From Aurantiacibacter marinus (GTDB lineage: Bacteria; Pseudomonadota; Alphaproteobacteria; Sphingomonadales; Sphingomonadaceae): a stretch of 64,000 bases of DNA. Shown one piece after another: positions 14,621 to 42,117 of the stretch (positions are counted from its first letter, which is position 1; the number at the start of each line of letters is the position of its first letter). The stretch is taken from NCBI RefSeq assembly GCF_001021555.1, contig NZ_LDCP01000001.1, positions 992,001-1,056,000 of the forward strand, written 5' to 3'. The position numbers and the translations under genes are program-made. The notes under the pieces were generated by a model that saw nothing but the letters and a program-made list of their open reading frames with translations, was not told the DNA's origin and searched no databases.

Positions 14621-14646
14621 GGAACCACTTTGGACCAGTCAGCGTT
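14621..14646 (+). promoter_or_regulatory. EcfG-type promoter of the response-regulator gene
   Basis: GGAAC (14621-14625), 17-base spacer, CGTT (14643-14646): an exact match to the GGAAC-N16/17-CGTT consensus of the general stress sigma factor EcfG. It ends 41 bases before the GTG start of the response regulator. Confidence 0.8.
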
Positions 14647-14686: not shown

Positions 14687-15154
14687 GTGAAATCGCCGTC
14701 GTTCAAGAAAACCAGCGCAAAACCTCGCCCGCAGAGCAAAGAAAAACCGCAGGCGGAGCGAACTGTATTGAACCGGGTTCTGCTGGTGGAAGATGATCCA
14801 ATTCTGGCGATGGCACTGGAGGATGCGTTCCTCAATGCCGGAACCGCTGATGTGGTCATATGCCAGAGCATGAAGGCCACCGTCCAGGAACTGGAAAAGG
14901 GCAGCCGCCCCGATGCGATTGTTCTGGATGTGCATCTGGCAGACCGGGACGATGGCTGGGCTATCGCAGAACTTGTCGACATGCTTGGTCCGCGCCGACC
15001 ACGCATCGCGTTTTCGACTGGATCGCCAGACGAAATTCCGGCTACGATCGCGGAAATGGGGCCGGTTTTCGAAAAACCCTATGATCCTGACCTGCTCGTC
15101 GCGGAGCTGGCTGCAGGACGCAAAAAAGGCCTGTTCGCCCGCCTGCTTGGCTAA
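14687..15154 (+). CDS. Single-domain response regulator, SdrG/FAT-GUY-like
   Basis: A 155-residue protein with a basic Lys/Pro-rich N-terminal tail (about residues 1-27) and a full receiver: acidic residues in VEDD (34-37), phospho-acceptor Asp81 in LDVHLAD, and Lys130 in FEKPYD. The stretch FSTG at 109-112 resembles the FATG motif of FAT-GUY receivers such as SdrG of Sphingomonas and MrrA of Caulobacter, which pass phosphate among kinases of the general stress response. There is no output domain. GTG start at 14687 with GGAGGG about seven bases upstream. An EcfG promoter precedes it, and phyR follows 337 bases later, so a role in the PhyR pathway is likely but inferred. Confidence 0.8.
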   Translation: MKSPSFKKTSAKPRPQSKEKPQAERTVLNRVLLVEDDPILAMALEDAFLNAGTADVVICQSMKATVQELEKGSRPDAIVLDVHLADRDDGWAIAELVDMLGPRRPRIAFSTGSPDEIPATIAEMGPVFEKPYDPDLLVAELAAGRKKGLFARLLG

Positions 15155-15228
15155 TGGTGTCTAACAGGATGAGCGCGTTATCATCCTGATAGCTAAGACA
15201 GTTTCCTAGAATGTCTCGATCATAACCG

Positions 15229-15315
15229 AAAAAAGGCCCCCGCTCTGGTGAGCGGAGGCCTTCGGGATCATATCACCGCCGCTTGGACGGGAGGGGGGGG
15301 TCTCGGCGGTGATGT
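15229..15315 (-). ncRNA. Predicted EcfG-dependent small RNA with C-rich loop (GsrN-like)
   Basis: On the minus strand an EcfG-like promoter (15346-15322) would start a transcript near 15315. The RNA then has an 8-bp perfect hairpin, TCACCGCC (15312-15305) with GGCGGTGA (15280-15273), whose 24-base loop carries eight consecutive C residues followed by TCCC. After a short linker comes an 11-bp stem, GGCCTCCGCTC with GAGCGGGGGCC (one G-U pair, loop ACCA), and six T residues (15234-15229), a textbook intrinsic terminator. Total length is about 87 nt. The layout matches Caulobacter GsrN: stress sigma promoter, exposed C-rich 5' loop that pairs with mRNA leaders, terminator. No convincing protein fits here. 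Homology to GsrN is not shown. Confidence 0.65.
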
Positions 15316-15321
15316 AGCTTA

Positions 15322-15346
15322 AATGGCCGGCCCGATTTTCAGTTCC
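15322..15346 (-). promoter_or_regulatory. Near-consensus EcfG promoter for the small RNA
   Basis: On the minus strand GGAAC (15346-15342), a 16-base spacer, then CATT (15325-15322). It differs from the GGAAC-N16-CGTT consensus at one base. A start 6-8 bases downstream falls right before the first hairpin of the RNA. Confidence 0.55.
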
Positions 15347-15433
15347 CGGCGGTTTCACGATTTTCGAATCTTTTTTCGTGGCAGTAGGATACAAGACCAA
15401 ATACCATCGGTCCCACCTGGCAAAAAACTAGCT

Positions 15434-15458
15434 GGAACCGAGTGCCGTACAAGGCGTT
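15434..15458 (+). promoter_or_regulatory. EcfG promoter of phyR
   Basis: GGAAC (15434-15438), 16-base spacer, CGTT (15455-15458), an exact EcfG consensus. It ends 32 bases before the phyR ATG, giving a short leader and positive feedback of the stress response on phyR. Confidence 0.88.
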
Positions 15459-15490: not shown

Positions 15491-16285
15491 ATGTCCATTG
15501 GGGCCGAAGTAGCAGCTCATCTTCCTTTTCTCCGCCGATATGCTCGCGCGCTGACAGGCTCGCAGTCAACCGGCGATGCCTTTGTTCAAGCCACCTTGGA
15601 GGCCGCTTTGGCCGATGAAGAGCTGGCCACATCGCTGCGCGGCGGACGCGTTCCGCTGTACGCGGCATTCAACAAAGTCTGGTCCAGCGCCTATATGGAA
15701 GTCGCCGATGCCGGCGCGGAAAGCGGCTCGCATGAAGCTGCGGCGCAAAACCAGCTGAAGCGTATCACTCCGGTGAACCGGCAGGCGTTGCTGCTGACTA
15801 CGGTTGAGGATTTCTCGCCCGAGGATGCCGGCAGCATCATGGGTATGGCCGTAGATGATGTGAACACATTGGTGAGCGAAGCCGTGGCTGAAATTCAGCG
15901 CGAGAATACCACCAGCGTTCTTATTATCGAAGACGAACCGCTCATTTCGATGCAGCTGGAAGATCTCGTTCGGTCGCTCGGCCATGATATTTGCGGCACT
16001 GCTGCTACCCGCACGCAGGCACAGGAAGTCGTGGCCGAGAAAACGCCGGGTCTGGTACTGGCTGACATTCAACTGGCGGATGGATCATCGGGTCTGGATG
16101 CAGTCGACGATATTCTTGCCATGGATAGCGTGCCGGTGATTTTCATCACTGCCTATCCCGAACGATTGCTGACAGGTGACCGGCCAGAACCGACTTACCT
16201 GATCACCAAGCCATTTCAGGAAGACACTGTGCGCGCCGCGATCAGCCAGGCGCTGTTCTTCGGCACCAGCCGCCCGCTCGACTAA
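15491..16285 (+). CDS. phyR: PhyR, anti-anti-sigma response regulator of the general stress response
   Basis: A 264-residue protein. Residues 1-135 are the sigma-like domain (HLPFLRRYARALTGSQSTGDAFVQ onward), and residues 142-260 a receiver with E147/D148, phospho-acceptor Asp192 in LADIQLADG and KPFQED near the end. When phosphorylated, PhyR binds the anti-sigma factor NepR and frees EcfG. Start at ATG 15491 fits the beginning of the sigma-like domain and the promoter at 15434-15458; the frame is open further left but covers that promoter. nepR and ecfG, usually adjacent, are absent. Its stop codon overlaps that of the convergent MATE gene by two bases. Confidence 0.95.
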   Translation: MSIGAEVAAHLPFLRRYARALTGSQSTGDAFVQATLEAALADEELATSLRGGRVPLYAAFNKVWSSAYMEVADAGAESGSHEAAAQNQLKRITPVNRQALLLTTVEDFSPEDAGSIMGMAVDDVNTLVSEAVAEIQRENTTSVLIIEDEPLISMQLEDLVRSLGHDICGTAATRTQAQEVVAEKTPGLVLADIQLADGSSGLDAVDDILAMDSVPVIFITAYPERLLTGDRPEPTYLITKPFQEDTVRAAISQALFFGTSRPLD

Positions 16286-27944: not shown

Positions 27945-28028
27945 GTCTTGGCCTCAATCGTTGGTCTTGGCTGCGCTTATAAGCAGAACGGCCAAGGATG
28001 CGAGACCGTTCCGGCGCTTTCTCCCGCT

Positions 28029-29553: not shown

Positions 29554-30404
29554 ATATCATCAGAACGGCTGACCTCACCCTTGCGTTCCATGTCGATCAG
29601 ATGCGCCAGTACGCTCTGCCCTGCGGCCGGCCACAGGCGCTCATCAACGCCTTTGTACATGACCGGGACCAGTGCCTCGATAGCGCGCGCTTCTTCGGCC
29701 AGCAGCTTCGTGATCTGCCGCTCGCGCGCCCTTCGGTGGCCCATCATTCCGCGCACCAGCTGGCGCGGTTTTTCGACGGCGGGACCGTGGGCAGGGTAAT
29801 AGATGCGGTCTTCGCGCGCATACAAAAGCGCAAGGCTGGCCATATAGTCAGCCATGTCGCCATCGGGCGGGACGACAACGCTGGTGGCCCAGCCCATCAC
29901 ATGATCGCCAGTGAACATCGCGCCGCTTTCCTCCAGCGCGAAGCAGAGGTGGTTGGAGGTGTGGCCCGGCGTTGCCACGGCGCGCAAGGTCCAACCGCTG
30001 CCGGTCATCGCCTCGCCATCCTCCAGCACGCGGTCTGGCGCATAGGTCTTGTCGAACGGTGCATCGACGCGCGGGGCGCTGCTTTCCAGTACCAGCGGCG
30101 CGCAGCCGACGATGGGCGCGCCGGTGACTTCGGCCAGCGGAATGGCGGCGGGCGAGTGATCGCGGTGGGTGTGGGTGCACATGATCGCGGCAACCTTGCG
30201 TCCGCCGATTGCTCTGGTCAGCGCCGTCAGGTGTTCATCCTCGGCAGGGCCGGGATCAATGACCGCCAGATCGCTTGTCCCGACAAGATAGGTTTGCGTG
30301 CCGGTATAGGTGAAAGGCGAGGCATTCGGAGCGAGCACGCGTGCCACCAGCGGCTCGATCTGATCGAGGTCGCCGGTCGGCCAGGGTTGCGGGGGGATAA
30401 TCAT
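29538..30404 (-). CDS. MBL-fold metallohydrolase with C-terminal winged-helix region
   Basis: A 288-residue protein of the metallo-beta-lactamase fold. The metal site THTHRDHS is near residue 80, TPGHTSNH supplies the next histidine, and FTGDHVMG the bridging aspartate; a helical C-terminal region follows (RARERQITKLLAEEARAIEALV), as in LACTB2-type enzymes. Such proteins hydrolyse thioesters or act on nucleic acids; the substrate is unknown. Start at 30404 is chosen because the longer frame (30494) runs over glpK; the two genes are divergent with 28 bases between. Confidence 0.78.
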   Translation of the reverse strand: MIIPPQPWPTGDLDQIEPLVARVLAPNASPFTYTGTQTYLVGTSDLAVIDPGPAEDEHLTALTRAIGGRKVAAIMCTHTHRDHSPAAIPLAEVTGAPIVGCAPLVLESSAPRVDAPFDKTYAPDRVLEDGEAMTGSGWTLRAVATPGHTSNHLCFALEESGAMFTGDHVMGWATSVVVPPDGDMADYMASLALLYAREDRIYYPAHGPAVEKPRQLVRGMMGHRRARERQITKLLAEEARAIEALVPVMYKGVDERLWPAAGQSVLAHLIDMERKGEVSRSDDIWTIN

Positions 30405-39342: not shown

Positions 39343-42117
39343 CTAGCCATGCGCGCCGAAGATATTGGCGATGGCGGTGGAGACGCGCAGGGACAAGCCA
39401 TGGGCACGCTCGATCGGGTCAACAAAGTCGCGGTGGATCGCTTCGTATCCCTCGTCAGAGCCATCCGGCCAATCGGTCGGCTCGGTCAGGTCGAAGCGGG
39501 AAATGCGGGGGAAACTGACCGGATAGGCGCGCCGCAATTGCGCCAGCGCCTCGTCCACGCGCAGAGTGAAGATCATCTCCAGCACATCATCGCGGCTGAC
39601 ATCGTTTGCGCGGCTGAACACTGGCACGCTGACGGCGCGGATGAACATGGATTGCAGCAGGGCAATGCGCAGCGCCTGCAGCACGCCGATCATCCGGCGC
39701 TTGTCCTCGCGCCCTTCGACAGGGGCTTCATCGGGAATGTGTTCCAGCAGGCGGTGCAATTTCATGGCATCCACGCGCAAGCGGCTGGCAAGGCGGCGGA
39801 AGGTGCCGACGCGGTCGTCCTTGACCAGATATTCGCTCAAACTCTCGCAGGCGGCGGTCAGATGGCCTTCGGTGCCGCGATATGGACGGCTGGCCCAATA
39901 GGCGGAATTGAACAGTTCGCCATAAGCCGCAACCGTTTTCACGCTGGCTAGCGCATTGGCGGCGCGCACCAGGCGGATCATTTCGCGCCCGCGCGGGCTT
40001 TCTGCCAGCAGGGTGCCCATTTCCTCGTAATTGCCTTCTGCCGCATGGCCGATCCCGGCGATGACATTCACCGGATAACCCAGTTGTTGCAGGATCGAAT
40101 TGTGCGGGATGGCGCGAATTTGCCGCAGGCTCATTTCGCGGTCTGCATTCAGATCGCTCTGGCGGCGGCTGACGCGGCTGCCGGTGGAATTGAGCAGGCC
40201 AAGTCCAAACGCGGTGATGGCGCGGTTATAGGTCGCGCTTGCCAGATGATCCTGCTGGTGTTCCTTCACAGCGCGGTAGAAATCCAGGCTGAGATCGGTG
40301 CGCTGGTAAAAGCTGTCCTTGGGGGCATCAGGATCGGTTGCGCAGGGGCGCAGGCAGGCGATGCGCGTCAGGGTCGCTTGCGCAAGTTCCGGCGTGGCGA
40401 ACCAAAGGTAGCCATCGCCGCCTTGGAAGCTGACTTCCGGCTCCAGCGCGATACCGGCCCGCGCAAAGCGGCGCTTGGCCCATGGGGACAGCGCCCAGTC
40501 CAGCCGGTCTGCCATATTGTTGGGGTGCGCGCCGCGGCCCATGCTTTCGCCGTGGGTGTTGAAAATCAACGCGGCCACATCGGTCAGGCCGTTTTCCTGC
40601 ATTGCCTGGGCAAGGCGGCCCTGCAAACGTTCAATCGCGAGGCTGGCGGGCACTTGCCCGACGAAACGGCCCGCGTCGGAAAAGCCTGCCTGAATGGCGA
40701 CACGGCCACGTTTCCGAGCGTAATCCTGATAGACCTTTTCAGCCAGCAACTCGTCCAGAAAACGCCCGCCATGTTCCAGCGCGGTTTCGGTTTCGAACAG
40801 CGGAGAGACATCGACCTTGTCTTCGATGCCGAACAGCTTCGCGAAATACAGCGCGGCTAAAACTGTCGCAGGCTCTTCACATTCCGCGATCAGCATCCGG
40901 ATCGGCGCATCAGCGTCGATATGCTGGAGGATCTGCGCCATCGCCAGGAACTGGCGGATAGCGGTGCTGGCTTCGATTGCGAGTGCGCCGAAATTGCTGC
41001 GGCGCGGCTTTACGTCGGAAATGGCGCGGCGCAGGTGCACGACCGCGCCCTTGCTTGCCAGATCAAGGTTGCCGTCCGGGTCGATCCGGCGGCGAATGGC
41101 GTTGTGCAGCTGTTTGGCGTTCACGCGGAAGTGAATCCAGCCCATGCCCAGACCATCGGCGCGCATGGCCGCGGACAGCGTTTTCAGCTGCACGGCGCGC
41201 TTCGCATCGCGCGCCTTGGCAGCTTCGCTTTCCAGCGCGTCAATGAACGGCGCAAGGGTGAGCAGCTTGCGCGGGTCGCTGGCAGTCAGGCGATTGGCCG
41301 CAATCGACAGCGCGGCGGGATCGGACAAGTCGGCTGAGAAATCCTGCGCGCGTTCGGCCGCGTAAAGCGCCGCAGGGCGCAATTCGGCCAGAAGCGGGTG
41401 ATCGGCATCGATCGCCTCCAGCTCCGCAACATACATGCCGAGATGTTCGGCCTTTTCGGAAAGGCGGAAGCCAATGGAATTGGACCAAGTGATGTCGGTC
41501 CGGCCATCCATGTCATAGCCAACCCAGCTGGCGAAGCGGAACGGCAGGGGTGAAAGTTCATGCCAGGTTTCGGGCCAGGTCGCCTGCGCATGGGTCAAGA
41601 CCTGGGCGACGATGGCATTGCGCGCTTCCTGCGCATGGGCAATGGCCCGCATTGCGCGTCCATGTTCATATTGCAGAGTGACTTGCGGGCGCTCTGATCC
41701 AACCACATCGCTGCTTATCGCATCGCCCGAAACAGCGGACGAGGCCACGGCCTGGGACTGATCGGGCGTCAGCAGGAAGGTCGGGTGCGCGGTAAAAACG
41801 GCGTGCAGATTGGGCTGTTCCCAGCGCGCCCGGAATGCGGCGAAATCGTCTGTCGTAAGCGTTTCCGCCAGTGCGGCCTTGTTGCTGGGTTCATCCAGCG
41901 GAGCGACCATGCGAGACAGGCGGTGGGACCGTTCCTGCAATGAACCCACTTCCAGTTCTGCAATGGCAGCTTCCAGATCGTCGAGCGAAATCTCGCCCGC
42001 TTCCATCTGGCGCGACAGTTCATGGGCAAGCTGGAATACCGGATTAAACAACGGCGTTTCTACCGTTGTCCGGTGCAATTCCTGCAATCGCTGGGTAAGT
42101 TTGGCAACGCTGGTCAT
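39343..42117 (-). CDS. ppc: Divergent phosphoenolpyruvate carboxylase family protein
   Basis: A 924-residue protein with the length and layout of PEP carboxylase, which makes oxaloacetate from PEP and bicarbonate. The hallmark TAHPTE appears as TAHPTF (109-114); the catalytic FHGRGGSVGRGG segment appears as FNTHGESMGRGA, with the first His and Arg changed; the C-terminus ends IANIFGAHG. The loop SWVGYDMDGRTDITW stands where GGDRDGNPNVT is expected. It may be a distant active PEPC or have a changed role. It is the last gene of the zwf-edd-glk-eda cluster, and its start overlaps the eda stop (ATGA). Confidence 0.6.
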   Translation of the reverse strand: MTSVAKLTQRLQELHRTTVETPLFNPVFQLAHELSRQMEAGEISLDDLEAAIAELEVGSLQERSHRLSRMVAPLDEPSNKAALAETLTTDDFAAFRARWEQPNLHAVFTAHPTFLLTPDQSQAVASSAVSGDAISSDVVGSERPQVTLQYEHGRAMRAIAHAQEARNAIVAQVLTHAQATWPETWHELSPLPFRFASWVGYDMDGRTDITWSNSIGFRLSEKAEHLGMYVAELEAIDADHPLLAELRPAALYAAERAQDFSADLSDPAALSIAANRLTASDPRKLLTLAPFIDALESEAAKARDAKRAVQLKTLSAAMRADGLGMGWIHFRVNAKQLHNAIRRRIDPDGNLDLASKGAVVHLRRAISDVKPRRSNFGALAIEASTAIRQFLAMAQILQHIDADAPIRMLIAECEEPATVLAALYFAKLFGIEDKVDVSPLFETETALEHGGRFLDELLAEKVYQDYARKRGRVAIQAGFSDAGRFVGQVPASLAIERLQGRLAQAMQENGLTDVAALIFNTHGESMGRGAHPNNMADRLDWALSPWAKRRFARAGIALEPEVSFQGGDGYLWFATPELAQATLTRIACLRPCATDPDAPKDSFYQRTDLSLDFYRAVKEHQQDHLASATYNRAITAFGLGLLNSTGSRVSRRQSDLNADREMSLRQIRAIPHNSILQQLGYPVNVIAGIGHAAEGNYEEMGTLLAESPRGREMIRLVRAANALASVKTVAAYGELFNSAYWASRPYRGTEGHLTAACESLSEYLVKDDRVGTFRRLASRLRVDAMKLHRLLEHIPDEAPVEGREDKRRMIGVLQALRIALLQSMFIRAVSVPVFSRANDVSRDDVLEMIFTLRVDEALAQLRRAYPVSFPRISRFDLTEPTDWPDGSDEGYEAIHRDFVDPIERAHGLSLRVSTAIANIFGAHG

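Follow-up and report, generated by a model that had tools for sequence, protein, structure and literature searches.

On the minus strand of the window, the 64-kb stretch of DNA analysed here, a locus divergent from phyR is likely to be the gene of a regulatory RNA of about 86 nt, which would be transcribed by EcfG as part of the general stress response and would pair with mRNA leaders through a C-rich loop. By analogy, a trans-acting sRNA working like GsrN of Caulobacter is the most likely mode of action. In the mechanism that we propose, PhyR would release sigma-EcfG from NepR, and EcfG would then transcribe phyR on one strand and the window RNA on the other. The RNA would fold so that its 5′ hairpin displays a C-rich loop containing UCCCGUCC, and would be ended by its own terminator. 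The loop would pair with G-rich stretches of mRNA leaders, in an anti-Shine-Dalgarno-like or an activating manner and probably with Hfq, and a post-transcriptional arm would thereby be added to the stress response.

The candidate sRNA occupies positions 15229..15315 on the minus strand, with its start (about 15314) taken from the promoter spacing and its end from the T run. The preliminary description had placed a minus-strand GGAAC-N16-CATT promoter ahead of it, and this reading stands: the EcfG-type −35 element GGAAC, found by sequence reading and motif scan, lies at 15342..15346 and the −10 element CATT at 15322..15325, separated by a 16-nt spacer, and 8 nt lie between CATT and the first paired base of the 5′ hairpin. 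This hairpin, P1 (15272..15313, minus strand; arms 15304-15313 and 15272-15281), is delimited by the fold and by covariation. The GsrN-like, C-rich 5′ loop first noted in it holds as a C8-UCCC loop in the predicted hairpin, whereas the 8-bp stem first assigned to it becomes one of 10 bp in the fold (AUCACCGCCG/CGGCGGUGAU). The loop, which is the proposed target-binding region, spans 15282..15303 on the minus strand with its C run at 15293-15300, and reads GAGA-C8-UCCC-GUCCAA, i.e., GAGA-CCCCCCCC-UCCCGUCCAA.

The 3′ end is formed by a predicted intrinsic terminator (15229..15263, minus strand; fold, terminator scan and covariation) with a tetraloop and six T residues at 15229-15234; here too the hairpin and the T run had been recognized from the outset, with the fold extending the stem from 11 to 14 bp. 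The proposal that a CCTCC in this stem pairs with ribosome sites did not survive, since CCTCC is base-paired within the terminator stem and is not conserved, with CCCCC and CTTCG in its place in relatives. The minimum free energy of the whole RNA is −45.7 kcal/mol vs. −25.8 ± 2.9 kcal/mol in 200 shuffles (z = −6.8), none of which was equally stable. The scans for the flanking elements returned two terminator-like sites vs. 1.4 expected in 1.3 kb, and six EcfG-type promoter motifs vs. 1.9 expected in the 64-kb window, with 2 of 100 shuffles reaching six. Both scans are weak alone, and it is conservation that supports the two elements. Other GGAAC-N16/17-CGTT matches in the window are located at 27987-28012, 29564-29589 and 41797-41821 (−).

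The divergent gene on the plus strand, 15491..16285, is certain to be phyR, as it encodes the PhyR sigma domains and a receiver (PF22029, PF22233, PF00072; NF006623 at 360.7 bits). Its start was taken as 15491 because a longer open reading frame from 15323 would cross the promoter, and the motif scan places a perfect EcfG-type promoter, GGAAC-N16-CGTT, at 15434..15458 (plus strand). On the other side, a single-domain response regulator gene (14687..15154, plus strand; PF00072), which may correspond to the SdrG-type regulators of Sphingomonas, converges with the sRNA and is preceded by a GGAAC-N17-CGTT motif at 14621..14646 (plus strand; motif scan), so that three EcfG-type motifs, those of the sRNA, phyR and the response regulator, fall within 840 bases. 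In the same genome, about 84 kb away, lies nepR (PF18557) with a directly adjoining ECF-type sigma gene (sigma-70 regions 2 and 4).

The linkage to phyR extends well beyond the window. Among 189 loci examined, 183 bear the core (the six left out being weak matches in the class) and represent 160 distinct regions; a divergent upstream phyR was found in 172 of the 183, as the preliminary description had reported for the window. For the remaining 11, the sequence upstream of the C run is only 29-904 bases long, and phyR may therefore lie beyond it. The loop is less than 400 bases from phyR in 97 of 151 deduplicated loci; in the others the distance is 489 bases (one locus), 0.9-1.1 kb (41 loci) or 1.4-1.6 kb (12 loci).

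The promoter is conserved to a similar degree: 169 of the 183 loci carry GGAAC-N16/17-C[AG]TT no more than 75 bases upstream of the C run (N16 in 167), compared with a background density of this motif in the examined loci of about 0.011 per 60 nt, and the spacer bases between GGAAC and the −10 element vary from locus to locus. Thirteen of the other 14 keep GGAAC with a different −10 element, frequently CGTA; the last is truncated where its stretch ends. The −10 element of the sRNA is CATT in 153 of the 169 and CGTT in 16, whereas the phyR promoters of the 151 deduplicated loci, with a motif in 124 and none by the same pattern in 27, have CGTT in 122 and CATT and TTTT in one each. Among the matches listed, the 20 Novosphingobium-titled loci have CGTT in 13, CATT in 5 and neither in 2, and the 99 others have CATT in 90 and neither in 9; most of the named Erythrobacteraceae thus retain the contrast between the sRNA and phyR promoters. 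These motifs suggest that the sRNA and phyR promoters are not equivalent, and the kept CATT might mean a weaker promoter, other timing or another sigma paralogue.

The occurrence of CATT rather than CGTT in the window and most relatives places promoter strength or sigma specificity in doubt, and the same bias (153/169 vs. 1/124, kept at neighbouring promoters) is what speaks for the first alternative, in which the sRNA is real but is transcribed mainly from a paralogous ECF sigma or the housekeeping factor, reflected in CATT, and does not belong to the general stress response. However, GGAAC and the 16-nt spacer are kept, CGTT prevails in the Novosphingobium-titled loci among the matches listed, and entericidin-like open reading frames near phyR in five loci of other genera (one of the five checked against Pfam Entericidin) also have GGAAC-N16/17-CATT, so that CATT recurs as a −10 element in those genomes. 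We consider transcription from another sigma factor unlikely.

The sRNA gene, with its EcfG-type promoter and its C-rich loop, is conserved in many related genera. A BLAST search with a 126-base query found the window RNA in 34 of 61 relatives, all 34 of the same genus (a same-genus tally of 34/37 with its own genome included). A covariance model, R1, built from 29 sequences chosen by loop core from 30 BLAST loci, added one genome (G020), so that 35 of the 37 genus genomes carry the RNA; in G009, a 98% complete genome, neither BLAST nor the model gave a match, and G032 has a weak match only, lacking the promoter. The covariance search of Sphingomonadales genomes advised at the outset, in which stricter filters were used and weak matches can be lost, bore out the candidate, with R1 matches, all in its own family, in 171 of 396 genomes at E ≤ 0.01 and in 140 of these at E ≤ 1e-6, and with the hairpins and the promoter retained in relatives. 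A DNA-pattern scan of named genomes gave at least 119 stretches. The carriers among the matches listed include Qipengyuania, Erythrobacter, Porphyrobacter, Altererythrobacter, Croceicoccus, Croceibacterium, Tsuneonella, Pontixanthobacter, Citromicrobium and Novosphingobium, and the named ones are Erythrobacteraceae and Novosphingobium.

In 385 genomes of the class, searched with the same stricter filters, R1 matched 53 at E ≤ 0.1, four of them from its own family; among the remaining 49, the lowest E-value is 3.2e-5. Six loci were fetched from these 49 genomes, and none carries an EcfG promoter; several of the weak matches are driven by the terminator alone, and they were set aside. Two C-rich hairpins with terminator-like ends and weak likeness to the window RNA, without an EcfG promoter, were seen in other alphaproteobacteria (L065:1501-1594 and L067:1501-1589).

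The proposed fold is supported by covariation. In 62 matches aligned to R1 (59 distinct), 98.5% of the cells are standard pairs; slid controls of the same alignment were at most 50% paired. Both-side changes occur in 10 of the 21 pairs vs. a shuffle mean of 4.5, and 0 of 500 shuffles reached as many. These counts lean towards the model because the alignment was fitted to it. Seven of the ten doubly changed pairs are in the terminator; the other three are in the 5′ stem (3 of its 8 pairs), each from one sequence, and the covariation of that stem is thin. In the loop, CCCCCTCCCGTCCAA is invariant in 29/29 aligned loci, which had been picked (29 of 30) by a pattern holding most of this core. The number of C residues in the run ranges from 5 to 9 in 59 of the 62 matches; the run is differently broken in three divergent copies found by the model, which retain UCCCGUCC. 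The variable length of the run points to a pairing loop and against a conserved reading frame.

The strong terminator with its T run could also belong to a neighbouring gene, the region then being a 3′-UTR or terminator element without activity in trans. In the window, the RNA and the response regulator gene are convergent, and in the two loci that were read, one of Qipengyuania (L128, where Pfam backs the call) and one of Novosphingobium (L081), phyR is separated from the RNA by a Crp/Fnr-type gene just upstream of the RNA and on its strand. However, the window lacks such a gene between phyR and the RNA and yet has the promoter, the C-loop hairpin and the terminator, and the loop is one of the most strongly conserved parts, although a terminator has no use for it. 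A mere 3′ element is accordingly improbable, and a trans-acting sRNA is preferred.

What such an sRNA would bind is suggested by the loop itself, which may pair with G-rich leaders. The preliminary description had pointed to targets of the katG type, and this idea found no support: for the 4 katG leaders scored, out of 6 in the genus, 0.50-0.71 of the background paired with the loop equally strongly, the best leader being no better than about half of the background, and katG was rejected as a target. In six genomes, GGGAGGG stands before ATG more often than its reversed control does, and in the window's own genome GGGAGGG-N2-11-ATG has 32 sites vs. 15 for the reversed pattern; among 31 GGGAGGG stretches inspected by eye, about eight looked start-like, although one of these is doubtful, as its reading frame is also open upstream. 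As a target signal this excess was rejected, since ordinary Shine-Dalgarno sites account for it equally. In one locus (L257; G000:C4:69032-69045), GGGAGGG directly precedes an open reading frame that by eye resembles acsF, encoding a cyclase of the chlorophyll pathway; the duplex of this site with the loop is not strong.

Pairing was also scored for the regulators themselves, as the RNA could act on ecfG or phyR directly through its loop. The leader of the genome's own ecfG pairs at −22 kcal/mol, in the top 4% of the background. An ecfG-like gene was found in 78 loci examined, second-RNA loci (see below) possibly among them, and the 50 ecfG leaders scored from these have a median percentile of 0.54, with 1 of 50 under 0.05; this feedback was rejected, as the pairing is not conserved. 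None of the leaders of phyR (percentile 0.295), the response regulator (0.095) and nepR (0.387, its start being uncertain) stands out. Direct control of ecfG or phyR is thus very improbable. Hardly credible at all is a small protein gene, for which a 64-aa open reading frame covering the region (15206-15400, minus strand) can be cited, since the C run of 5 to 9 bases shifts the frame and the sequence changes follow pairing.

We now compare the window RNA with described RNAs. At gathering score, three tRNAs are the only Rfam 15 matches in the window. A permissive search gave 6C (RF01066) at 27.4 bits and CC1840 (RF01521) at 24.5 bits, both with a weak likeness over the whole length of the window RNA and far below their gathering scores (47 for 6C, 50 for CC1840). 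A full-text literature search, covering titles and the starts of abstracts with thin coverage of subscription journals, found no description of this RNA or of the second RNA treated below. The absence of an Rfam match at gathering score and of a description in that search agrees with the initial judgement that the sRNA is undescribed. CcsR/cuckoo sRNAs of Rhodobacter and its relatives have C-rich, anti-Shine-Dalgarno-like loops and are linked to stress; their motif, CCUCCUCCC, differs from that of the window RNA.

The closest parallel is GsrN, an RNA that is stabilised by Hfq and cleaved to a stable 5′ isoform. The GsrN study describes this RNA of Caulobacter crescentus (CCNA_R0081) as about 100 nt long, with a stress-sigma promoter and a 5′ hairpin exposing six tandem C; in Caulobacteraceae other than C. 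crescentus itself, its gene is usually found close to ecfG-nepR-phyR (PMC5869019). According to the same study, pairing of GsrN with the katG leader activates katG, the predicted target sites of GsrN are G-rich, and gsrN-like genes are named in Caulobacteraceae and members of Rhizobiales, with no apparent one in the outgroup Erythrobacter litoralis (PMC5869019). Several Erythrobacter-titled loci carry the window RNA, and E. litoralis is not among the matches listed. The window RNA would resemble GsrN in its EcfG/SigT-type promoter (169/183 loci), its predicted 5′ hairpin with a C loop, its predicted length near 100 nt and terminator, and it is likewise close to phyR (divergent in 172/183 loci). 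Unlike GsrN, it has no complementarity to katG found in the four leaders. The likeness is one of plan, the two RNAs having been compared by description. On this comparison, the window RNA is best classed as a putative new sRNA family, GsrN-like in plan, rather than as a member of GsrN.

A second C-loop RNA was found in Sphingomonadales that lack a strong R1 match. The lead to it was a pattern searched in the class, GGAAC-N16/17-CGTT-N-C6, which occurs at 29 places in 21 of 190 genomes, one of them (L306) being a structured RNA near phyR. A search for PhyR in 30 Sphingomonadales genomes that R1 matches weakly (G039 and G042) or not at all was positive in 17. Nine of these 17 phyR neighbourhoods carry the second RNA (L313:5746-5853; also L309-L311, L314-L317 and L320), eight of the nine with a strict EcfG motif; R2, the model built from the nine sequences, also matches a tenth neighbourhood (L312). 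The RNA is divergent from phyR, about 2.0-2.2 kb away and behind a PhyK-like kinase. Its 5′ stem, GGAUAGYGA/UCGCUAUCC (with one exchange in L316), encloses a loop of 6 to 9 C, and its 3′ part is a long hairpin with another C-rich loop and no clear T run. In the nine sequences, the 5′ stem has 0 both-side changes and the second hairpin has them in 8 of 19 pairs. Rfam 15 gave no match up to E 1 for the copy in L313. Short lipoprotein open reading frames lie by the second RNA at L313:5965-6093 and, similarly, in L311, L315, L316 and L320, with GGAAC-N16/17-CATT upstream; the Pfam check mentioned above was made on that of L313.

R2 matches 102 of the 396 Sphingomonadales genomes at E ≤ 0.001 and 99 at E ≤ 1e-6. 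At the latter threshold no genome of the 396 has both R1 and R2, vs. 35 expected if the two were independent, a contrast that shared ancestry inflates; at 1e-5 there is one such genome. The best 30 R2 loci, the query's own included, have a strict promoter in 27 (26 CGTT, 1 CATT), an upstream HisKA_2 kinase, PhyK-like and below the NCBIfam cut-off, in 29, and a downstream entericidin gene in 22. In 372 genomes of the class, R2 matched only G061, apart from one weak match (8e-4) without a promoter. R2 finds nothing in the window, L001, L013, L081 or L128, and the best R1 score in the 17 stretches of the second-RNA search, 24.8 bits, is not convincing; no relation in sequence between the two RNAs is seen. 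They are alike in the EcfG promoter, the C-loop 5′ hairpin, the strong second hairpin and the divergent phyR, whereas they differ in their stem and loop sequences, and the second RNA has a mostly CGTT −10 element, a distance of about 2 kb and a C-rich second loop.

Tentatively, the general stress response of Alphaproteobacteria could include a C-loop sRNA as a regular component. GsrN, the window RNA and the second RNA of Sphingomonadales would then be descendants or functional replacements of one arm, in which the promoter, the vicinity of phyR and the C-rich loop were kept while the other sequence was turned over, and a G-to-A change fixed in the −10 element of Erythrobacteraceae would separate the dose or timing of the RNA from that of phyR. 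With the two RNAs, the stress response of Sphingomonadales gains two candidate sRNA arms, and the window RNA bears on a gap in the GsrN study, whose outgroup was an Erythrobacter with no apparent gene of this kind (PMC5869019). Two unlike C-loop RNAs with a non-overlapping distribution would offer a test case of whether selection keeps function over sequence.
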